Below the pieces are notes generated by a model that had not been told where the DNA came from, ran no database searches, and saw nothing but the letters and a program-made list of their open reading frames with translations. This document shows, in pieces, positions 11,227-22,033 of a DNA stretch of 64,000 nt. Every line of letters starts with the position of its first letter. Position 1 is the stretch's first letter. The translations under genes were made by a program, and so were the position numbers. The DNA comes from a virus: the IMG/VR virus record IMGVR_UViG_3300021957_000025, positions 1 through 64,000 of that record; one strand, 5' to 3'.

Positions 11227-11391
11227 TTATGCTGGGTCGGGTGGAGTATCAGTCTTCTCTACCCATGTGTAAGTTGAGTAGACTACTTTAAGTTCTTCAA
11301 CAAGGCCTTCTTCACAGGAGAAAATATACATTTCCTGTCCTTCCTCTACCGTGTCGCTTGTTAATCTAAATTTATGATGTTCTAGTGCCAT
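11227..11391 (-). CDS. Small hypothetical protein
   Basis: 54 aa, MALEHHKFRLTSDTVEEGQE to the acidic/proline end DTPPDPA. Beta-rich pattern (EMYIFSCEEGLVEELKVVYSTYTWVEK). The gene fills the gap between the lysozyme gene and the 105-aa gene, overlapping the latter by 20 bp, with GAAGAAGA just upstream as a ribosome site. No function recognised. Confidence 0.55.
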   Translation of the reverse strand: MALEHHKFRLTSDTVEEGQEMYIFSCEEGLVEELKVVYSTYTWVEKTDTPPDPA

Positions 11392-11689
11392 CTTCTTTCT
11401 CCCTCTTCATTTGTTCCTCGACAAGTTCCATTAATATGTCACCCATGAGGTCGTTTAATTCACTATTATTTAGGAGTTCCTCAAGTCCAATATCCGTCTT
11501 TTCCTGGCCATGTGGAAATCTTCTTATAGTTCTTGTGAAGTTAATATTTGGTTTACCTTCTTCGAATTGTATCTTACCATATTGGTATACAAGTCCGTCC
11601 CATTCTCCACCTGTTAGTTCGATGGCTGCATCATCCTCATTGGGATTCTCTACGACCATGTAGACTTTCTTATGAAATAATTCTGTCAT
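11372..11689 (-). CDS. Hypothetical protein
   Basis: 105 aa from MTELFHKKVYMVV, started at the ATG preceded by GAGGAAGAG. The core ELTGGEWDGLVYQYGKIQFEEG looks like a beta-sheet domain; the C-terminus (DLMGDILMELVEEQMKREKED) is a charged helix. It overlaps the P-loop kinase gene, so it may belong to the same transcription unit as the DNA modification cassette. I do not recognise the family. Confidence 0.6.
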   Translation of the reverse strand: MTELFHKKVYMVVENPNEDDAAIELTGGEWDGLVYQYGKIQFEEGKPNINFTRTIRRFPHGQEKTDIGLEELLNNSELNDLMGDILMELVEEQMKREKEDGTRTS

Positions 11690-12206
11690 AAATCTCTTCC
11701 TCAATTTTCATAGATGATTCTATGCAATCGTTATCACGAATCTGCAATTGTCCTAGTAGATTCATGTTTGTTAATATGTTGTTTATCTGACTCCGTCTCC
11801 CCTTCAACCACACTTCGGACTGTGTGTCTCCACGTTCTGCGTGACGATTGTGCTCTTCCGATAACTCTACTGTTAGTACGTAAACGCGTGCTTCGTGATT
11901 GTCTATTAACCATTCTATATCCTTACCTCGAAAGTATCTATCACCTTCGATTAATACATGTTTATATGCAATGTTCATTGCTTCAATGAACTCTCTGAAC
12001 TGTGGTATAGAACCGTGAGAGAGCTTATCAGTTCCACCGAATGTCTCTCCCTCGGGATATTGACCGACTACTAATATGTCACCATGTTCTTGGCACTTAA
12101 ATAGTTTCATTGGTTCAACCAATTTAGGTTCGTCCAATCTAGATATAAGTCTTCTCATAAGAGTCGACTTTCCCGAACATGGAACTCCACCGACCATGAA
12201 TATCAT
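11670..12206 (-). CDS. P-loop kinase, possible DNA-base kinase
   Basis: 178 aa. Walker A GGVPCSGKST lies at 6-15. HVLIEGDRYF near 88 is a plausible Walker B-type strand, and RSQINNIL adds a basic lid-like helix. It resembles small nucleotide/polynucleotide kinases. The stop is directly followed by the TET/JBP gene start region (12206/12207). Phage P-loop kinases have been described that phosphorylate 5-hydroxymethyl bases in DNA as a step of hypermodification, and I infer such a role here from the neighbours. A dNMP kinase is the alternative. Confidence 0.6.
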   Translation of the reverse strand: MIFMVGGVPCSGKSTLMRRLISRLDEPKLVEPMKLFKCQEHGDILVVGQYPEGETFGGTDKLSHGSIPQFREFIEAMNIAYKHVLIEGDRYFRGKDIEWLIDNHEARVYVLTVELSEEHNRHAERGDTQSEVWLKGRRSQINNILTNMNLLGQLQIRDNDCIESSMKIEEEIYDRIIS

Positions 12207-13208
12207 TTAAAAGAAACCGTCCAGTGAACCTTTCTCTTCATACTTTCCAGCATGAGGGCCAATAGGATTCTCTGATTTTCCAGCTCTCCCTTTAGTTGCA
12301 ACATGTTCATCACAATATGCAACACATGATAATCTCACTCCTTCACCAGTGATAGGTGATACACCGTGCAATTCATTTGAATCTGCAATCAGTACGTCTC
12401 CATCATCTGCTTCAATAGCAATACCATATCTAGGGAAACATAAGTATGCACCCCCAAATTCTCCAATACGGAAGACACACATAGTTGTCATTCCGAACTC
12501 TAAATCTTTACCATCCAAATGTGCAGACATCTTTGCAGTCCCACCAGTTGAATATTTGTTTGCAGATAACGCTGTCATAGGAGAACCACCAATGTGGTAT
12601 TTCTCTTCTATACATTCATCTGCAAATGTTCTTTGCATATTCCATATCTCGGGAACTGCAGTCTTTAGTGCTTGTTCATTGACGTTAGCAATCTGTGATA
12701 GGATTTCAAACTTTTCTTTGTTTGCTTTCTTGTCCATCCATCCACTGCCCTTAATCATTCCTGTGAATCTGCCACGTTTATACCCGATTAGAACGGAATG
12801 AATCTCATTTGCTTCTGCAATACGATTGAACTCACCGTTCTTCTTAAGTGGATAATAACTGTTTGGAGTTCTTAGGACATAGTCTTTACCTTCGATTAAT
12901 CCTTTTGCTTTCATTTCTTCGTGGTTGATAGGCCCGGCTGCATTTGCTCTCATTGTAGATGTATCATCAATAGAAAACAATGTGTCTTTAATTAAATGAT
13001 ACTGGTCACCTTTGTATGCTCTCTTTACAATACATGCAAGTAGTGTTTCACCCATGAGTGTACCATGAGGCTTATAAATTTTGATGATGTCGTCTTTAAC
13101 ATCTATAGATGATATAACAGTATCGTAAGAATCTTCATTGAGATACTTACCATTCCATTTGTCGAAGGTTTCTTTAAACCCTAAGTCTGTCTTTGCAGTA
13201 AATTCCAT
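12207..13208 (-). CDS. TET/JBP-family 2OG-Fe(II) dioxygenase, likely 5-methylcytosine hydroxylase
   Basis: 333 aa. The C-terminal half matches the Tet_JBP fold: SAHLDGKD gives the HxD pair (H230, D232), GGAYLCFPRYGIAIEADDGD the conserved strand, DSNELHGVSPI the distal histidine (H281) and VRLSC the 2OG-binding Arg (R292). TET/JBP enzymes oxidise 5mC or T in DNA. The gene overlaps the 3' end of the C5-cytosine methyltransferase by 28 bp, so methylation followed by hydroxylation of phage cytosines is the natural reading. The N-terminal 200 residues are unassigned and may bind DNA. Confidence 0.82.
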   Translation of the reverse strand: MEFTAKTDLGFKETFDKWNGKYLNEDSYDTVISSIDVKDDIIKIYKPHGTLMGETLLACIVKRAYKGDQYHLIKDTLFSIDDTSTMRANAAGPINHEEMKAKGLIEGKDYVLRTPNSYYPLKKNGEFNRIAEANEIHSVLIGYKRGRFTGMIKGSGWMDKKANKEKFEILSQIANVNEQALKTAVPEIWNMQRTFADECIEEKYHIGGSPMTALSANKYSTGGTAKMSAHLDGKDLEFGMTTMCVFRIGEFGGAYLCFPRYGIAIEADDGDVLIADSNELHGVSPITGEGVRLSCVAYCDEHVATKGRAGKSENPIGPHAGKYEEKGSLDGFF

Positions 13209-14458
13209 GGTTCTAATATTTGTCCTTTGATGTTTTCAACTAAGTAGTACATACATAATGGTGCTACCATCAATCCAATTCTTGCACCCTTGTCGTTGTA
13301 ATCACCAGTCATTTTATAATCATTTGGTAGAGTCATTAATCTCACCATTTCTTTTGGTGTGTAAATTCTTTTACCACTATGGTGGAAATGATTACCACCC
13401 ATAAACTTTGGTTGACAACCCTGTTCAGTTAATGAATGAGCTGGTAGATGTTTAGGAACTATTCTTGACATGTAGTAAGAATGCTTTTCATCTTCGGGTT
13501 GTATGTGTCCGTTCTTAATCTGTTCTTGGAACCATGGTTTAACAATGTGGTCTCCAATAGATGTGTATGCTTGATTGTCTCTTTGTTTAAGAACTTCTGC
13601 AACTCCAGTACATGGGCCACAACCTTCAAACTTCTCATCGGGATGCACATCGAATCCATTTACCCAGTGTCCTTTTGATGATTCATCCATTGCAGTTTCT
13701 AAATATTTTGCATCTGTAATATTTTCTTCATCAGTTTCTAAGTCTGAAATTGCATCTTCAATAGATGCAAATTCTTTTACTGGGTCGGGGAAGACTGAAG
13801 ACATACACATCCAAGGCATTCCAATACCTTCGAGTACATCATCACGTACACCAACCATGAATACTCTTTCTCTCTTCTGAGGTACACCATGCTGATGACC
13901 CTTCATGATTTTCCAAGTCACTGAGTATCCTAGTGCTTCAAAATCGTTTACCATCTTGTTTAGATGGTCTCTTGCATAGTCCATTGAAAGACCTTTCACG
14001 TTCTCACATACTATAACTTTAGGCATTAACCCTTCGGCAATCCTAATCATTTCCCATGTTAGGTCTTCAATGTTCTGTTGTTTCATACCATATGCCATCT
14101 TCTCTTGGTTCCATCCTTCTTTCTTGGAACCTGCCATAGAAAATGGTGGACAAGGTGGTGACCCATCCATGATATCTAATTCGTATTTCTTAAGTCCACT
14201 AAGCTCCATGATACCTTCTGCAGTGACTTCTTTGATGTCTCTACATTCGTGTACTGTGTTAGGGAAGTTTTCTAGGTAGGTGTCAACATGTAACTGTTGG
14301 AATTCGTTCATGTAACGAACGTCACCACCTGCTAGTTTGTAACCACATGAAGAACCCCCACCGCCTGCAAAGAAAGTAATGTAATTAAACTGTTTACTTT
14401 CACTGTTACGGTGAAGGTCTTCTAGGTTGTATTGAAAATATTTATTATCACTCATCAT
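13181..14458 (-). CDS. C5-cytosine DNA methyltransferase
   Basis: 425 aa. Motif I FFAGGGGSSCGYKLAG near 29-44 (SAM site); motif IV GSPPCPPFS with nucleophile Cys103; motif VI CENVKG near 151-156; motif VIII QKRERVFMVGVR near 194. The variable target domain (about 210-330) is followed by the closing motifs X/IX near GARIGLMVAPLC. It transfers a methyl group to C5 of cytosine in a short DNA motif. Its coupling to the TET-type gene suggests it makes the substrate for hydroxylation rather than only protecting against restriction. A -10 TATAAT lies 6 nt before the first ATG. Confidence 0.93.
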   Translation of the reverse strand: MMSDNKYFQYNLEDLHRNSESKQFNYITFFAGGGGSSCGYKLAGGDVRYMNEFQQLHVDTYLENFPNTVHECRDIKEVTAEGIMELSGLKKYELDIMDGSPPCPPFSMAGSKKEGWNQEKMAYGMKQQNIEDLTWEMIRIAEGLMPKVIVCENVKGLSMDYARDHLNKMVNDFEALGYSVTWKIMKGHQHGVPQKRERVFMVGVRDDVLEGIGMPWMCMSSVFPDPVKEFASIEDAISDLETDEENITDAKYLETAMDESSKGHWVNGFDVHPDEKFEGCGPCTGVAEVLKQRDNQAYTSIGDHIVKPWFQEQIKNGHIQPEDEKHSYYMSRIVPKHLPAHSLTEQGCQPKFMGGNHFHHSGKRIYTPKEMVRLMTLPNDYKMTGDYNDKGARIGLMVAPLCMYYLVENIKGQILEPWNLLQRQT

Positions 14459-14500: not shown

Positions 14501-15028
14501 TTAAAGATTTTCTAATAGATTTTCGGGTGTGGAAATCTCATAAGGGTCTGACTCTGCATTGTCTTGATAGCCATCTTCGATGAATGCTTTTTCAATTACA
14601 CCATCATTAACAACTACTGCATATCTCCAAGACCTGTATCCAAAACCAAGATTTGATTTAGAACATTCTGCACCAATCAAGTGAGTGAACTCACCGTTAC
14701 CATCGGGAAGAGGGTAAACGTTTTTGATACCTAATGATTCGAACCATGAGTTCATTACGAATGTATCATTAACTGATACACAGTAAATCTCATCAATACC
14801 TTTCTCTTGGAACTTCTCAAAGTTCTCATCGAAGCCAGGCAACTGTTGAGTTGAACATGTTGGTGTAAATGCGCCAGGCAATCCAAATACAATTACTCTT
14901 TTACCAGCAAACTGTTCTACAGTGTCTAATGCTACAAATTCACCACCGACTCTCTGTGGTAGGATTACTTCGGGTACTCTAGTTTCCCCTTCAATAATTT
15001 CCAATCCCATTCTTCTTTCATCTGTCAT
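14501..15028 (-). CDS. Peroxiredoxin (Prx5-like)
   Basis: 175 aa. VFGLPGAFTPTCSTQQLPGF holds the peroxidatic Cys58 in the PxxxTxxC motif; the Arg partner lies in FGYRSWRYAVVV. It reduces H2O2 or alkyl hydroperoxides using thioredoxin or glutaredoxin from the host. No glutaredoxin domain is fused. Next to Hsp20, it forms a small stress-protection pair. Its own promoter is embedded in a 9-bp inverted repeat. Confidence 0.92.
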   Translation of the reverse strand: MTDERRMGLEIIEGETRVPEVILPQRVGGEFVALDTVEQFAGKRVIVFGLPGAFTPTCSTQQLPGFDENFEKFQEKGIDEIYCVSVNDTFVMNSWFESLGIKNVYPLPDGNGEFTHLIGAECSKSNLGFGYRSWRYAVVVNDGVIEKAFIEDGYQDNAESDPYEISTPENLLENL

Positions 15029-15641: not shown

Positions 15642-16001
15642 TTATCTTTTATTGCAATATTTTTTTGCATTACTTATTTGTTGAACATTATTTACAACCA
15701 CTACAGACATAAGAATGTTCATCCAGTCGAATGTATCTGAAGTCAATCTGTCTTCTCTTCTATCTATTTCTATAGCAGGTAATAGAATTGCAGTCTTAAC
15801 TGCGAACATTTTACCTACTGAAGGAGACTCTCCTACAAGTGGATTTAGTTCTTTCACACAATCGTATTTAAGTCCACGATATGTTGTGTAGATATCTGCA
15901 AGTTGTAGGGTATAGAATAAAGTCCAATCAAACGTATTAGGTAATTCAGATGGTGTAAACTGTAACTGGTTCAGATTTTCCTTTGACTGTGATTCTATCA
16001 A
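15642..16001 (-). CDS. DUF5658-like small membrane protein
   Basis: About 119 aa, start uncertain. The frame is open upstream to 16253 but there lies inside the cyclase gene; I use the TTG at 16001, and CTG near 15970 is also possible. FDWTLFYTLQLADIYTTYRGL, then KELNPLVG, then a hydrophobic stretch VKTAILLPAI and another near MNILMSVVVVNN match the DUF5658 pattern (membrane helices around an ELNP motif). It is the last gene of the curli/cyclase operon. Function unknown. Confidence 0.5.
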   Translation of the reverse strand: MIESQSKENLNQLQFTPSELPNTFDWTLFYTLQLADIYTTYRGLKYDCVKELNPLVGESPSVGKMFAVKTAILLPAIEIDRREDRLTSDTFDWMNILMSVVVVNNVQQISNAKKYCNKR

Positions 16002-17787
16002 CTTCAGAGAATGCTCTAGATGGACACTGTCGATATGTTGCTTCGCCCAACAGCACGTCCACCCCATCATAATTTCGTGTTTGTCCTTCGAGTCTAGCAC
16101 CAAGGTTGACGGCATCTCCAATGACGGAATAGTCAAATCTAAGTTCTGACCCCATGTTTCCAACGATGCACTCACCAGTGTTAATACCAATGCCAACATT
16201 GATAGGGGGAAGACCGAGTGGTTTGAGTTCTTCATTGAGTTCCTTGGTAGCAATTAGTATTTCTTCTGCAGACTTGACTGCCATCTCGGCATGGTTCGGA
16301 CAGTCCATTGGAGCATTCCAAAAACTCATTATACAATCGCCCATGTATTTGTCTATAGTTCCACCATTATTTAGAATTATCTTAGTCTGTAAGTCCAAGA
16401 ATCTGTTAATCAATTCTACCAATCCTTCGGGGTCATCATTCTTCATGAACGCTTCACTTATTGGGGTGAATCCACATATGTCCATAAACATGAAGGTAAG
16501 TTCCTTTCTATCTCCACCAAGTTTCAATTTTGATGGGTCTTTTTGGAGCTCTTCAATCATGTCGGGGGATAAATACTTTTGGAACTGCTTCTTAATCTGT
16601 TGTTTTTCTTGATATGTAATGTAGTACTTGTTGAAAGAAGCATGTCCGAACACCACCAAGGAGGCAATCGATGAGAAGAAGGTATCGAAAAGAACGAGCT
16701 CTGAAGTCCAAATATAATAACTCCCGCCAATCTGGCATCCTACAAGCAATAGACTCCCTACCCCCGAAAGAAGTGTGGGAGCTTTGTAGACCAAACCCAA
16801 TATCGTTATTAGGACTAACAGAAGAAGAACGGATTCTAAGGATTCAAGATAGTAGGATTGTTGTATTTGAACTCCTGTCAAAACGGTTTGGAGCAGGTTT
16901 GCTTGCACTTCGTGGGGATACATTACTCCCCTTGGGGTTGAAACTGGATTATTCAAACCCTCAGCTGTCAGACCCCATACAAGAATCTTATTCTCAAAAT
17001 TAGATTCGGGTAGGTCAACTGCAGATATTCTATGGAATTTATTCCAATAGGAAACCATTACGTCTGAAGTTGGAGTTGTTGTAATAGGTTTGTCTCTCCC
17101 CATTCTAACCCATTCAACTCCAGCTTCGGGTGTAATCTTAGTTTGATAAGACGGCTGGTCACGTAAGGCACGTAATGTCTCTAAAACTAGAGATGGATAT
17201 ACCTGTCCGTTTGCAGTAACCATAAGGGGTACAGACCGCGTAGTCCCATCAAAATTAGGTGTCCCAGTGACAGCTGGAGTAGCCGTTACAACTCCTATAC
17301 CGTAAGTGTTTTTAGCAAGTATTGGAATGGGTTGGACTATCCCAGTGAAATTCCACAACCAATTCTTTGCATCTCCACCACCAAAAGTAGAGTTACCTAC
17401 GAATGGTAATGCACCTGTATCTTTTTGAATTGTTGGAGCAGCTCCGAGGATTGTAAGTCTATTGACTAACCCCTCAGCAAATAGATTGTCTTGTGAAGGG
17501 TCTCTATCACTTTCCGAAAAAAGAGTAGAGAACAAATGAGTGTTAGAGTAATGAGTGTTAAGAAGAATGTCACGGTAAATACCACGGCGAATAGGATACT
17601 GTCCAAAAGTCTCAAGACTCTTCTCATCAATATCAACAAGTACGATGTCATCGACATAGAATTCACCCTGTTGTTGGTGAAGGTAATCAAACCACGACCA
17701 TGAGATGTTTTCAACAAAATAAGGATTCCATATCTTTAGAGCAAAGATTGCTACGATTGTTATTAATACTGATTTCCACGAAAACAT
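15946..17787 (-). CDS. CHASE2-domain class III adenylate/guanylate cyclase
   Basis: 613 aa from MFSWKSVLI, right after the upstream stop (TAAAATG); an ATG at 17850 is possible but lies in the preceding gene. One N-terminal membrane helix, a periplasmic CHASE2 sensor domain (about 25-310, with DDIVLVDIDEKSL and YPIRRG), three membrane helices (about 315-390), then a cyclase domain. Catalytic residues look complete: metal Asp in FMFMDICGFT (near 431), KYMGDCIMSFW (near 480) with the second Asp, and NLGARLEGQ with the Asn/Arg pair (near 560). It should make cAMP or cGMP in response to a periplasmic signal. Such a cyclase is very unusual in a phage. Confidence 0.88.
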   Translation of the reverse strand: MFSWKSVLITIVAIFALKIWNPYFVENISWSWFDYLHQQQGEFYVDDIVLVDIDEKSLETFGQYPIRRGIYRDILLNTHYSNTHLFSTLFSESDRDPSQDNLFAEGLVNRLTILGAAPTIQKDTGALPFVGNSTFGGGDAKNWLWNFTGIVQPIPILAKNTYGIGVVTATPAVTGTPNFDGTTRSVPLMVTANGQVYPSLVLETLRALRDQPSYQTKITPEAGVEWVRMGRDKPITTTPTSDVMVSYWNKFHRISAVDLPESNFENKILVWGLTAEGLNNPVSTPRGVMYPHEVQANLLQTVLTGVQIQQSYYLESLESVLLLLVLITILGLVYKAPTLLSGVGSLLLVGCQIGGSYYIWTSELVLFDTFFSSIASLVVFGHASFNKYYITYQEKQQIKKQFQKYLSPDMIEELQKDPSKLKLGGDRKELTFMFMDICGFTPISEAFMKNDDPEGLVELINRFLDLQTKIILNNGGTIDKYMGDCIMSFWNAPMDCPNHAEMAVKSAEEILIATKELNEELKPLGLPPINVGIGINTGECIVGNMGSELRFDYSVIGDAVNLGARLEGQTRNYDGVDVLLGEATYRQCPSRAFSEVDRITVKGKSEPVTVYTI

Positions 17788-17788
17788 T

Positions 17789-18058
17789 TTATGAGAATTT
17801 CTTCTGTACCCATTTAAAGACTGTATAAATGGATAGACCATAGAATGCAAGTACAGACATGGGCAATGCTATGTACGCAAGTTCCCATGGTGATAAAAAC
17901 AGAACTTCCCAACCAAAATTTATAGCTGCCTCAACGTCACCCAAAGGTTCAAGTGTTGCTGGCAATGCAATTTCATTCTCTTCAAAGAGGTCTAGTATCT
18001 CATTAAACTGTTCTTCAGTATAACACTCGTAAAACTCGGGTGGGCATTCTGCGTTCAT
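17789..18058 (-). CDS. Small protein with one C-terminal membrane helix
   Basis: 89 aa from MNAECPPEFYECY. The ATG overlaps the stop of the curlin-repeat gene (ATGA) and has CAGGA upstream. An acidic N-terminal half (about 1-50) precedes a membrane helix (ELAYIALPMSVLAFYGLSIY) and a short basic tail. There is no signal peptide or CsgE signature. Coupled between a curlin-like gene and the cyclase, it may be an accessory of either. Function unknown. Confidence 0.6.
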   Translation of the reverse strand: MNAECPPEFYECYTEEQFNEILDLFEENEIALPATLEPLGDVEAAINFGWEVLFLSPWELAYIALPMSVLAFYGLSIYTVFKWVQKKFS

Positions 18059-18693
18059 TCCTGTGTTACCGATAATGTACAACCATTAGAAGTCTGACAG
18101 TTTTGTGTTAGATTATAAATTTGATTTGTGGAACTATCTTGCAATAGGTTTAAAGTTGTTGCATAGTTTCCTTGAAGTGTTATTGTTGAAGTGTGACTTC
18201 CACTACCTTTCTGTGTAACATTAGTGACGGAGTTATCGCTGTTTCCATAATAGTATGTGGTTGAAGTGTGACTTCCACTACCCGATTGAGATAAGTCGTG
18301 GTCTACACCATCGACATGAACGTCTATGTTGTGTAGGTGTGTTCCATTTTGATACACATCCACCTCATTATTATTACCCCATATGTGTCTACCATATGTT
18401 GCACCACCAATCTGTTCTACGTTTTCAGTATTATTGGTTCCATCTACATCACCACCCCAAGCCTTTCCCGACCCCCAATAAGAGACCCAAGAAATGGAAT
18501 TACCATTACCTGTTTGTGTAAAGTTGAATGTGTTGCCACCGTGAGCAAAAGAGAAATCAACTTTGTTGTTGTAACCTGTTTGAATTATAGAGAGGTCTAC
18601 ATCACCACTCTCAACTTGTTCAACATGGACATGATTTTCGTCTGCCCATGTCGACAAGCTTATCAATAAAGTTAATAATAAACTTTTCTTCAT
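18055..18693 (-). CDS. Curlin-repeat secreted protein (CsgA/CsgB-like), second copy
   Basis: 212 aa with signal peptide MKKSLLLTLLISLSTWA. Curlin-type repeats follow the pattern hydrophobic-x-Q-x-G-x-x-N: SIIQTGYNNKVDF, NFTQTGNGNSISW, DLSQSGSGSHTST, NVTQKGSGSHTST and TITLQGNYATTL. These repeats stack as beta-strand pairs in amyloid curli fibres. The middle is rich in H, N and G. A 23-bp direct repeat in the DNA (18185-18207 and 18260-18282) underlies two of the repeats. Export would use the CsgG/CsgF pair encoded just upstream. Confidence 0.82.
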   Translation of the reverse strand: MKKSLLLTLLISLSTWADENHVHVEQVESGDVDLSIIQTGYNNKVDFSFAHGGNTFNFTQTGNGNSISWVSYWGSGKAWGGDVDGTNNTENVEQIGGATYGRHIWGNNNEVDVYQNGTHLHNIDVHVDGVDHDLSQSGSGSHTSTTYYYGNSDNSVTNVTQKGSGSHTSTITLQGNYATTLNLLQDSSTNQIYNLTQNCQTSNGCTLSVTQE

Positions 18694-18705
18694 ATCATAT
18701 TCTTC

Positions 18706-18852
18706 TTAGAATAACCATAAAAATACTAAACATAAGACAACTCCCTCACCGAATGCTAACCACAACATGTGGTAATCATCCAATCTCATAGCTTTCTGAA
18801 ACCCAAATAATTGTGCTTCATGCCATGCACGGAACTTTTCTATAATATTCAT
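18706..18852 (-). CDS. Small membrane protein in the curli operon
   Basis: 48 aa, MNIIEKFRAWHEAQLFG then a charged helix and a membrane helix (AFGEGVVLCLVFLWLF) at the C-terminus. AGGAGA lies 5 nt before the ATG. It fills the only gap between the FecR gene and the second curlin-like gene. No family recognised. Confidence 0.6.
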   Translation of the reverse strand: MNIIEKFRAWHEAQLFGFQKAMRLDDYHMLWLAFGEGVVLCLVFLWLF

Positions 18853-18860
18853 ATATTCTC

Positions 18861-19988
18861 CTAGTTTGTTTGTGTGATAGTAATATTTATAGACGAACCA
18901 TCACCCACTTGTATTAGTGACTCCTTTTCGTCTGTTATGGTTCTAATGGATGCTTGTGCAAACATTGGTAATCTAATGGAAATAACTCCATTAACTTCCC
19001 TGTAGAACCATATCTGGCCCAGACCCTTGTCTACAATTGTATTGTATTGAGTGTCTTTGTCAAACCCCGAACCTGTTCCTTGAATACGAACACTTCCGAA
19101 TGCTTGTCGTTCTCTATCGATACCAACCTTACGGTCAATCTCTAAGACAACGTCCAGTAAATCTTGTAAGAAATCGACATCTAATAAATCTCTATCGAGT
19201 TCTGTATATTCTAATTCATCATCTTCGAAATAGTCTTCTTCTAAATCATTGAACTCTAGGAAGTCTACGTCTAGAATATTACTACTATCATTCTCTGAAC
19301 CACTTTCTTCTGATATCTGTTCTGTCACCTCTTCGGGTGGAGATACAATGAAGTAGTTATCAATTAGATTGGGTGTAATCCCATTCACTACAACTGGTTT
19401 TGTAGGTGAATCATCATAAGTTGAAACCATTGTTGTCTGATATGCTTCATTCATGGTCACCGAACCACCAGCATTACTTACTACAATTTCTCCCGAGGGA
19501 GCACCCCATTTATCGGGGAGCAGAATTATCAATGACCTTCCGATTTCATCAATACTAGTTGTGAAATCTGTGCCTCTGACTGTTATCTGTGCAGTAGGTG
19601 TAGTTATATTTATGTTCGCTTTGTTTATTTTACCACCAAAACCCGAAGCAAATCGAGCGGTGCCTTGTGCCATTCTTATGGCCATCTTTGACTTGGATGG
19701 GTCGGGGTCATAGTAAACCTCGTCTATCCAAACTTTGGAGTGTTCTGTTAAGTCTAGTTCCTCGTCTCCTTGGAACTGAATTTTCATTCTTCCATTCTGA
19801 GTTTGTGCTGTATCATACATTAGCACTTCAGGCATCTCAGATGCTGAGATGACGGTAGTCTCACCGTCTCTCTGCAACCCAGCGTATCCTGTTTGTTCTG
19901 TAATCTCACCTATTGGTTCACCATGAAGTGAACCAATAAGTAAAAGATTAATCGTTATCGTCTTTTTGAACGATGTCAATATTTGCAT
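18861..19988 (-). CDS. Exported FecR-domain protein
   Basis: 375 aa with an N-terminal hydrophobic export signal (TITINLLLIGSLHG). FecR-type beta domain at about 25-190: a DSKVWIDEV-like strand (HSKVWIDEVYYD), RMAQGTARFASGF, and ITTPTAQITVRGTDF, the signature of FecR domains. This is followed by a very acidic linker (about 220-275, LDVDFLEFNDLEEDYFEDDE) and a C-terminal beta region. It lacks a membrane anchor and anti-sigma region, so it is a periplasmic or surface protein. In bacteria, FecR-domain proteins often sit next to CHASE2 cyclases, as here. The start overlaps the curlin-like gene by 41 bp. Confidence 0.82.
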   Translation of the reverse strand: MQILTSFKKTITINLLLIGSLHGEPIGEITEQTGYAGLQRDGETTVISASEMPEVLMYDTAQTQNGRMKIQFQGDEELDLTEHSKVWIDEVYYDPDPSKSKMAIRMAQGTARFASGFGGKINKANINITTPTAQITVRGTDFTTSIDEIGRSLIILLPDKWGAPSGEIVVSNAGGSVTMNEAYQTTMVSTYDDSPTKPVVVNGITPNLIDNYFIVSPPEEVTEQISEESGSENDSSNILDVDFLEFNDLEEDYFEDDELEYTELDRDLLDVDFLQDLLDVVLEIDRKVGIDRERQAFGSVRIQGTGSGFDKDTQYNTIVDKGLGQIWFYREVNGVISIRLPMFAQASIRTITDEKESLIQVGDGSSINITITQTN

Positions 19989-20676
19989 TAGAAGTCACGA
20001 AAGTCACATCGATAATACCACTACAAGATTGTCCAGTTGGGCATCCTGTATCTGAACCACTCTTCTGAATGATGTCGATATCATTACTTGAACCAGTTAA
20101 GATTGCAGTAATGCTGTTATCAGTTGCATCTGATTGATTAGTGTTAATGTCATTAGATGAACCTGTAACAGTCCAGTTCCAAACAGCATTGTCACTATCT
20201 ATCTTAGTAGTGAATATGTTTGATGAACCAGCAACTACTAAATCCCAGTTAAGGTATTCAGCACTAGCATCTGCACCAATATCAATATCAAATGTATTAG
20301 ACGAACCTGTAACAGTACCTAACATATTTAACTCGTCAGCACTATTTTGACCAATGTTCCAGTCCATAACATTTGAATCACCAGTGAAGGTGAGGTTTAT
20401 AGTTGCTGAGTCAGCAATCATAGGCCCGAATAGTTTGTTACTGTCTCCAAATTGGACAAGTGTAAACGTATTAGATGCACCAGTTAAAACCATATCAGCA
20501 GATGTTCCCGAGAAATCATCTAGACCAACTTTGTTTCCATATCCTTTCTGTGTAAAATCTAGTACTAAACCAGTACCACTTTGATTCAACCATATTTCAT
20601 TGTCGTCTGCTCCAGCAAATGCTGTAGTAGAAAACCCTAATGTTAAACATAATGTAATGAATAATTTATTCTTCAT
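19948..20676 (-). CDS. Curlin-repeat secreted protein (CsgA/CsgB-like), first copy
   Basis: 242 aa with signal peptide MKNKLFITLCLTLGFSTTAFA. Repeats of the curlin type: DFTQKGYGNKVGL, TLVQFGDSNKL, DWNIGQNSAD, and many TGSSN/TGASN turns spaced about 22 residues apart, ending with DIIQKSGS and DIVQKDDND. It should form a beta-solenoid amyloid-type fibre subunit. It overlaps the CsgG gene by 11 bp, so production of subunit and channel is coupled. The C-terminus has a CPTGQSC pair that could form a disulfide. Confidence 0.82.
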   Translation of the reverse strand: MKNKLFITLCLTLGFSTTAFAGADDNEIWLNQSGTGLVLDFTQKGYGNKVGLDDFSGTSADMVLTGASNTFTLVQFGDSNKLFGPMIADSATINLTFTGDSNVMDWNIGQNSADELNMLGTVTGSSNTFDIDIGADASAEYLNWDLVVAGSSNIFTTKIDSDNAVWNWTVTGSSNDINTNQSDATDNSITAILTGSSNDIDIIQKSGSDTGCPTGQSCSGIIDVTFVTSNANIDIVQKDDND

Positions 20677-21574
20677 TTTGTTTATCCTCTATTTGATGTC
20701 CCTCGTTTCTTCCATGAGTTCCGTGTGGATGTCGATGACCATCTTTAATTACCCAAAAACTTCTATCGTGTCCTTGGTATATTAGTTCTAAGACAGCTAG
20801 TTCAATTGCAGAACGAGTTGCTTTCGTAACTCCTTCATTCGCTGCTATACCGTCTTCCATTTCCACCAACTTCGTATCCATATCCACGAAGCGGAATACA
20901 TCATAACCACCGCCTGTACTTAAAATCGTCTTTGTAGTCTGTACATTTAGTAAAATTTCACCAGTTAAAGTTGATATTCCTCTCAACGATACCGTGACAA
21001 CATCTCTACGATAGGAAACACTTGAACCAATACCTAAGTATCTTGCGCCTCGCCCACCACTTTCAATGTTTGTATCATAACCAATTATCCCACCGTCAAG
21101 TAGGATACCAGCAAACAAGAGAGGTTGAATGCCCGTTGGAGCATCCTCATTACCTTCCTGTCTTGCAAAGTCTTCTCTAGTAGAACGAATGATTTGTCTC
21201 TCTCTTACAAGTGCGTCTAAACTTGTACGTTCTACTACTCTAAACCATTTACCTTTTCCAGCAGTCTTAAGTGCATCAATTAAAAATGATTCTGCACCTT
21301 GTGTGACTGCAGTAGAGAATGATGCAATGTTATCCATTCTCTTCCTTTGTCCTGTCTTATCTAAGAACCCATACACTGCAACTACTGGCATATTGTCAGC
21401 AGGTGGTAAGTCTGCAAGTTCTTGGTACGTAGGTATATTTACTACTTCTGCCTGTTCGACACATTCACCTACTCGTTCCATAACCAATGATGTACAGGAA
21501 TCCGTCATGCTTGGTATGGCAGCACACCCGCTGATGAGCAAGACTAACAGTCCTACTATTCCTAAGTTTTTCAT
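20666..21574 (-). CDS. csgG: CsgG-type outer-membrane curli secretion channel
   Basis: 302 aa (bacterial CsgG about 277). Lipoprotein signal with lipobox LISGC (Cys17). Family signatures: VAVYGFLDKTGQRK, FRVVERTSLDALVRERQIIRS, LLFAGILLDGGIIGYDTNIESGG split over two stretches, and RRDVVTVSLRGISTLTGEIL. CsgG forms a nine-fold pore in the outer membrane that exports curli subunits. The C-terminus has a His-rich extra tail (DGHRHPHGTHGRNEGHQ). It follows CsgF with no gap. Confidence 0.95.
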   Translation of the reverse strand: MKNLGIVGLLVLLISGCAAIPSMTDSCTSLVMERVGECVEQAEVVNIPTYQELADLPPADNMPVVAVYGFLDKTGQRKRMDNIASFSTAVTQGAESFLIDALKTAGKGKWFRVVERTSLDALVRERQIIRSTREDFARQEGNEDAPTGIQPLLFAGILLDGGIIGYDTNIESGGRGARYLGIGSSVSYRRDVVTVSLRGISTLTGEILLNVQTTKTILSTGGGYDVFRFVDMDTKLVEMEDGIAANEGVTKATRSAIELAVLELIYQGHDRSFWVIKDGHRHPHGTHGRNEGHQIEDKQNEE

Positions 21575-22033
21575 TTAAAAACTACCAGTACCGATTGGTA
21601 TATCTAAAGTTGTAGTTGTTCCATCACTTGCTACAATGGTTAGACGAATGAATTCCACACCGTCTTCTCCAACCATCTGTTCGTATGTAACTGTATTACC
21701 TTCTATAGTGAAGACACCGTATGTTACAGCTTCACCGTTAGAGAACATATTCTCTACTAATTGTTTTGCAAGTTGAGCATAGATTCTGCTCTCTACGTTC
21801 CTTAAAAATTTGGCAAGTGTCGTGTTATTTGCTTCTCTATCTGCCTTTGCAATTGCATCTTCAACGTCTTGTGCTATCTTATCACGTCTTGATTTCTCTT
21901 GGTTCTCAATGGTAAGATAATGTGCTGATTGACCTACCCCATTAAAACTAGGACTCTTAAATCCAAATACAATTTCATCTGCATTTACAGACATACACAT
22001 CATCATTAAAATTATACTACTTACTATTCTCAT
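21575..22033 (-). CDS. csgF: CsgF-type curli assembly protein
   Basis: 152 aa, signal peptide MRIVSSIILMMMCMSVNA. The mature N-terminus DEIVFGFKSPSFNGVGQS is the conserved CsgF segment that plugs into the CsgG pore and directs fibre nucleation at the cell surface; in E. coli CsgF this is the FQFRNPNFGGNP region. A C-terminal beta domain follows. It overlaps the preceding membrane protein gene by 17 bp and is directly followed by csgG. CsgE, the third curli factor, is not seen. Confidence 0.9.
   Translation of the reverse strand: MRIVSSIILMMMCMSVNADEIVFGFKSPSFNGVGQSAHYLTIENQEKSRRDKIAQDVEDAIAKADREANNTTLAKFLRNVESRIYAQLAKQLVENMFSNGEAVTYGVFTIEGNTVTYEQMVGEDGVEFIRLTIVASDGTTTTLDIPIGTGSF

Follow-up and report, generated by a model that had tools for sequence, protein, structure and literature searches.

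Gene clusters in which a TET dioxygenase and a C5-methyltransferase are joined by a glycosyltransferase for cytosine hypermodification were reportedly described in phages by Burke et al. 2021, and phage DNA-base kinases and annotated TET–kinase neighborhoods in actinophages are also already known. In the T4 pathway, 5-hydroxymethylcytosine (5hmC) is made on the nucleotide by deoxycytidine monophosphate hydroxymethylase and tailored in DNA at the hydroxymethyl group by AGT/BGT, while in the thymidine hypermodification of phages M6 and ViI the base is a uracil, supplied through the nucleotide pool by a deoxyuridine monophosphate hydroxymethylase, on which a 5-hydroxymethyldeoxyuridine (5-hmdU) DNA kinase (PF18748, M6 gp54) and then an amino-acid:DNA transferase (ADDT, PF18724) act. 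Here we analyzed a 64,000-nucleotide stretch of viral DNA (positions 1 to 64,000 of IMG/VR record IMGVR_UViG_3300021957_000025; hereafter, the window) carrying adjoining genes for a C5-cytosine DNA methyltransferase, a TET/JBP dioxygenase and a P-loop kinase. We consider it fairly likely that these genes form a cassette acting on DNA itself, in which the methyltransferase is followed by TET and TET by a kinase that phosphorylates 5hmC.

The locus shares with the phage TET/C5-methyltransferase clusters a methyltransferase–TET pair that is predicted to work on DNA, close relatives having a TAGT in the slot behind TET, and differs from them in having a P-loop kinase in place of the glycosyltransferase and, by prediction, a phosphate in place of a sugar. 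With M6 and ViI it has in common a predicted DNA-level kinase for a 5-hydroxymethyl-pyrimidine, membership of phrog_800 and the P-loop, GxD and EG motifs, whereas the base here would be a cytosine derived from methyltransferase and TET, and PF18724 was not found. As in T4, 5hmC in DNA would be tailored at its hydroxymethyl group; in contrast to T4, the family of the nucleotide-level route (thymidylate synthase, PF00303) was not found in five large relatives or in Methylophilales phage Melnitz, in a search that detected it in Caulobacter phage Cr30 and the controls and that lay outside the window record.

That record spans 65 kb and is a fragment of a T4-like marine virus of bacteria, with genes for a late sigma factor, a clamp, a clamp loader and a gp46/47-type nuclease, and the closest cultured relative of the phage is Melnitz. 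The cassette lies on the minus strand (14458-11670) and is transcribed in the order methyltransferase, TET, kinase, with the following features:

13181..14458, minus strand: C5-cytosine DNA methyltransferase, 425 aa (PF00145)
12207..13208, minus strand: TET/JBP Fe(II)/2-oxoglutarate dioxygenase, 333 aa (PF12851)
12206..12209, minus strand: tailoring slot, where the TET stop codon and the kinase start meet with no gap
11670..12206, minus strand: P-loop kinase, 178 aa (PF18751, phrog_800)

A first-pass annotation, made from the DNA letters alone, had placed the three open reading frames (ORFs) at 11670-14458, and Pfam searches confirmed all of the families it had named. The close packing that it described was also seen: the methyltransferase ORF overlaps the TET ORF by 28 bp, and the kinase ATG (12206) comes immediately after the TET stop codon. 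Such direct contact between TET and kinase is the exception; most relatives have a ParB-like gene in between, which the window lacks. In Melnitz (genes 5-8), the methyltransferase, TET and kinase are likewise present at 53-57% identity, and a 427-aa gene separates TET from the kinase.

From family membership and gene context, there is strong support for the first two predicted steps, from C to 5-methylcytosine (5mC) by the methyltransferase and from 5mC to 5hmC by TET. The methyltransferase matches PF00145 (E 9e-49), its top match among solved structures is 8yf3 (E 7.3e-68), and the catalytic cysteine noted earlier, Cys103, does lie within a PPC motif, with ENV and QKRER motifs also there. The TET with which it is co-located matches PF12851 Tet_JBP (E 1.6e-12, 47.4 bits, cut-off 34.9) and has the HxD...H and 2-oxoglutarate-binding arginine of the TET/JBP oxygenase domain; the four residues picked out in the first-pass annotation, H230, D232, H281 and R292, are unchanged across 10 phage TETs down to 27% identity. 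A PDB sequence search with TET returned nothing usable. The window methyltransferase and TET are each 53% identical to their Melnitz homologues (genes 5 and 6, respectively). The target of the methyltransferase was not revealed by dinucleotide ratios, CpG and GpC both being depleted at kinase, glycosyltransferase and empty loci alike. Since this TET lineage also supplies the hmC-acting enzymes AGT and TAGT with their substrate, its product is most simply 5hmC, and the window enzyme very probably generates 5hmC in DNA.

To place the kinase, the most informative comparison was that of the genes directly behind TET. More than 150 loci, many of them overlapping, came from four scans of viral contigs, and among the relatives in which both genes would be visible, almost all had methyltransferase and TET side by side. 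The methyltransferase–TET pair is fixed in these loci and the flanks are constant, while the genes right after TET vary. The contents of this slot include the following: the kinase alone, as in the window and its nearest relatives; a ParB/Srx-fold protein (fold assigned with AlphaFold2 and Foldseek) plus kinase, which is the commonest arrangement; a tandem pair of kinases (L061, L063, L065, L066); a restriction-enzyme-like gene between TET and the kinase (L062 3474-3995, L068 9025-9555; PADLOC REase_II 2.1e-7), which would constitute a methyltransferase-TET-REase-kinase cassette; the kinase together with a gene that weakly matches HNH (L147); glycosyltransferase modules of the TAGT, T4 alpha-glucosyltransferase or GT8 type, sometimes with an epimerase or cytidylyltransferase (matches to PF11440 T4 DNA alpha-glucosyltransferase, 1.7e-73, and PF20691 TAGT, 8.9e-11); and no gene at all (L204-L212).

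After dereplication at 99% TET identity, 53 TETs could be classified: the slot held a kinase in 37 cases and a glycosyltransferase in 10, was empty in 6, and in none (0/53) held both. The mutual exclusion of kinase and glycosyltransferase gives a Fisher p of 4e-7, a value that is uncorrected for relatedness, which lowers the effective sample to two switches rather than 53 independent cases. The TET tree needs at least two such switches, one of them in the window's own 8-row clade, and the TETs of a locus with a kinase (L023) and of one with an epimerase and TAGT (L026) are 90% identical. The large records were divided in the same way, with no TAGT in the kinase bearers (G001, G002, G003, G007 and Melnitz) and no kinase in the TAGT bearers (G004, G005, G006). 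No TAGT was found in the window record, where the kinase rather than a glycosyltransferase fills the slot; a search of the large records for AGT was uninformative, as it gave no match in any of them, controls included. In T-even phages, the substrate of AGT and TAGT is 5hmC or glucosyl-hmC in DNA (PMC13216743). Because the slot swaps between the kinase and these 5hmC-DNA glycosyltransferases, the kinase is, judged by gene position, in the tailoring position of the TET pathway. The earlier proposal of a cytosine hypermodification cassette is thereby upheld as regards the constant methyltransferase–TET pair and the 5hmC glycosyltransferases in the same slot, but not as regards the further substituent that was to follow the phosphate: ADDT, the only transferase family known to come after kinases of this sort, was not found in the window, four large kinase-bearing relatives or Melnitz.

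The kinase itself matches PF18751 Ploopntkinase3 (E 1.2e-7, 31.9 bits, cut-off 27), is 57% identical to the Melnitz kinase and has a Walker A motif (GGVPCSGKST), FGGTD and EGDR motifs and the arginines R121/R125. Its AlphaFold2 model (pLDDT 92.5) has a small P-loop kinase fold, for which the fold neighbors in the PDB were generic small P-loop kinases only, and a PDB sequence search returned nothing usable. The family phrog_800 matches residues 3-156 (E 1.3e-12) and also takes in gp54 of Pseudomonas phage M6 (E 2e-39), which we take to be the purified M6 5-hmdU DNA kinase. M6 gp54 matches PF18748 "5-hmdU DNA kinase" (E 7.7e-18) and has an ADDT gene and an HMUDK_hel gene as neighbors. In a 10-sequence alignment, the window kinase and M6 gp54 have in common the P-loop, GxD, EG and the lid arginine R121; G7, G12, K13, T15, D60 and R121 are present in 10/10 of the aligned kinases, and G58, E87 and G88 in 9/10. 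The relationship between the two proteins is remote. A kinase purified from phage M6 phosphorylates 5-hydroxymethyluracil (hmU) in DNA (PMC6449724). The slot position and this remote homology together give moderate support to a kinase that acts on 5hmC in DNA. T4 gp1 was unreported by a hidden Markov model (HMM) of the kinase, even at E 100 with filters off. When the kinase alignment was run against 84,980 prokaryote genomes, no relative was confirmed, so that at this sensitivity the family looks phage-borne.

In the pathway that we propose, the methyltransferase would convert C to 5mC at its target sequence in polymerized DNA, TET would hydroxylate 5mC to 5hmC in DNA, and the kinase would then use ATP to phosphorylate the 5-hydroxymethyl group, yielding 5-phosphomethylcytosine or the corresponding pyrophosphate. 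Either the charged base would keep restriction or CRISPR nucleases from cutting the phage DNA, or it would serve an unrecognized enzyme as an intermediate; by analogy, a protective role against restriction or CRISPR is plausible.

It is important to note that several results weigh against this proposal. At E<=0.001, PF18748 matched M6 but neither the window record nor its relatives, and an HMM of the kinase family missed M6 gp54 (E 22, not significant), leaving phrog_800, a profile-to-sequence alignment of mediocre probability (93.7) and the motifs as the link between the two. The (commercial) 5hmU DNA kinase that has been studied is inactive on 5hmC (PMC6457204), and a 5hmC DNA kinase would therefore be new. 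ADDT (PF18724) was found in M6 and Cr30 and in none of the window record (which is partial), four large kinase-bearing relatives and Melnitz. In addition, the short contigs L151-L153 have the kinase with no methyltransferase or TET within the contig. Lastly, a distant paralogue of the kinase occurs in L073 alongside a cytidylyltransferase and a putative glycosyltransferase upstream of TET, and Cr30 combines its kinase with a sub-threshold TAGT-like match. Because of these two exceptions, both in more distant phages, exclusivity of kinase and glycosyltransferase is not universal. Since neither ADDT nor HMUDK_hel was found in the kinase-bearing relatives, the phosphate may be the last group added, or it may be followed by the action of an unrecognized enzyme.

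It is unlikely, in our estimation, that the pathway runs through thymine, with TET oxidizing thymine to hmU in the manner of JBP, the kinase being an hmU DNA kinase and the methyltransferase an independent protective enzyme. The best-known kinases of the superfamily do act on hmU, and Cr30 and Gordonia phage Wooper have TET, kinase and ADDT without a C5 methyltransferase. In Wooper, gp1-gp4 are a ParB-like protein, a TET-like protein, ADDT and a PF18751 kinase labeled "5-hmU DNA kinase" by its depositors, while in Cr30 TET, ADDT and the kinase homologue lie within about 9 kb, with the kinase about 5-8 kb from TET/ADDT. As no C5 methyltransferase was found in either phage, both probably use the thymine route. 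They resemble the window in pairing TET with a kinase from this family, and Wooper resembles the window's relatives in its ParB-like gene, but they differ from it in having ADDT and lacking the methyltransferase. The methyltransferase gene of the window, by contrast, overlaps that of TET and is found with it in almost every relative, and close relatives carry hmC-acting enzymes of the T4 type (AGT/TAGT) directly behind the same TET. A kinase for free nucleotides, i.e., a deoxynucleoside monophosphate kinase like T4 gp1 or a salvage enzyme that is a neighbor by chance or recycles modified monophosphates, seems a little less probable still. The fold does resemble NRK1 and guanylate, adenylate and gluconate kinases (TM about 0.5-0.6), but matches as broad as these do not discriminate; TET makes its base in polymerized DNA, so that no pool of hydroxymethyldeoxycytidine monophosphate is needed, and the gene is swapped with DNA glycosyltransferases and has homologues that sit with TET and ADDT.

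The slot genes of the relatives raise the question of whether the cassette resembles a restriction–modification system, in which ParB-like, ParB-HNH and PD-(D/E)xK-like proteins would be nucleases cutting unmodified DNA and the kinase would complete the protective mark. In favor of this are the type II restriction enzyme-like gene of L062 and L068 (PADLOC 2.1e-7), the weak HNH matches in the slot genes of L147 and L141, and a ParB-like model that matches ParB/Noc CTPases, SbnI and sulfiredoxin. However, ParB/Srx folds are also those of CTPases, kinases and regulators, and in the window no such gene lies between TET and the kinase; we regard this explanation as improbable. Least credible is a role in RNA repair or end healing that has nothing to do with base modification: an RlaP-type RNA-repair nucleotidyltransferase is encoded a few kb from the Cr30 homologue, and polynucleotide kinases are among the P-loop kinases of similar size, but the slot-gene tables contain no consistent RNA-ligase neighbor, while TET is a consistent one.

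Returning to the phosphorylation of 5hmC in DNA, we suggest, tentatively and with less than even confidence, that the kinase is the first DNA base kinase of cytosine type and that the virion DNA ends up with 5-phosphomethylcytosine or the pyrophosphate as its final base, an alternative to glycosylation in a group of marine phages. A full-text search, whose coverage cannot settle priority, found no paper on a 5hmC DNA kinase or 5-phosphomethylcytosine. Nor was a description found, in the literature covered, of TET and kinase combined with a C5 methyltransferase, of an exchange between kinase and glycosyltransferase or of the predicted phosphorylated cytosine. If correct, phosphate would be a third way to tailor 5hmC in DNA, beside sugars and plain 5hmC, and a 5hmC-specific DNA kinase would be of use for labeling or mapping 5hmC. 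Tailoring modules that swap behind a constant methyltransferase–TET core are what would be expected in an arms race with modification-dependent restriction. The homologues in the cultured phage Melnitz make the claim directly testable; they are annotated there just as "methylase" and "hypothetical", and in the Melnitz paper the methylase is mentioned and the word "kinase" is absent (PMC9004378).

The three cassette genes are conserved across dozens of viral contigs, and purifying selection acts on each of them, the ratio of nonsynonymous to synonymous divergence from near relatives (dN/dS) being 0.04-0.12 for the kinase, 0.10-0.17 for TET and 0.10-0.14 for the methyltransferase. Compared with close relatives, the kinase shows a synonymous divergence of 0.65-0.92, two to three times that of the adjoining TET and methyltransferase (0.29-0.40), which suggests that the kinase has been exchanged separately from them. 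A scan for the late-promoter motif CTAAATA gave matches at chance level. The cassette is bordered by two genes with no assigned place in the proposed pathway:

14501..15028, minus strand: peroxiredoxin gene on the 5' flank of the cassette (PF08534 6e-27)
11372..11704, minus strand: conserved ORF of 104-110 aa overlapping the kinase end (phrog_3998 1.3e-6)

The latter ORF has no Pfam match and is the same beside kinase, glycosyltransferase and empty slots, forming the 3' border of the variable slot.

Several further observations were made on the slot genes of the relatives. In the tandem arrangements, the second kinase copy is about 40% identical to the first (L061 5335-6401, L063 9000-10108) and could add a second phosphate. 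The ParB/Srx-fold protein adjoins the kinase in L011 (9086-10222) and many relatives. The weak HNH matches are C-terminal in proteins that have the kinase as a neighbor (L147 4065-5549, L141 1384-2817), and that of L141 also has a very weak GmrSD_N match. These slot proteins may be nucleases, CTPases or regulators. In L024-L027 and L069, a truncated-looking NAD-epimerase (166 aa, the C-terminal part only) precedes TAGT, and in L024-L027 TAGT is followed by an ORF of 251-263 aa that by eye looks like a class I methyltransferase or spermidine-synthase-like fold.

We rejected the phrog_800 label of the kinase, "terminase small subunit", which is probably a misannotation based on position. Weak matches were found in 363 phage records, mostly of mycobacteriophages. 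Proteins of phrog_800, and Cr30 gp114, M6 gp54, Saguaro gp7 and Phipps gp1, are probable DNA-base kinases, and hundreds of phage records label such proteins "terminase small subunit" or "adenylate kinase".

Elsewhere in the window, a curli-like operon was identified on the minus strand (15946-22033), encoding CsgG (PF03783 3e-48), CsgF (PF10614 1e-13), a FecR-domain protein and two curlin-looking proteins with Asn/Gln/Gly repeats, one weak Curlin_rpt match (0.022) being found. Melnitz is reported to have csgF/csgG without csgA/csgB. The operon also encodes a protein with CHASE2 and class III nucleotide cyclase domains (PF05226 3e-28, PF00211 3e-15), and homologues of this cyclase are present in many related contigs.

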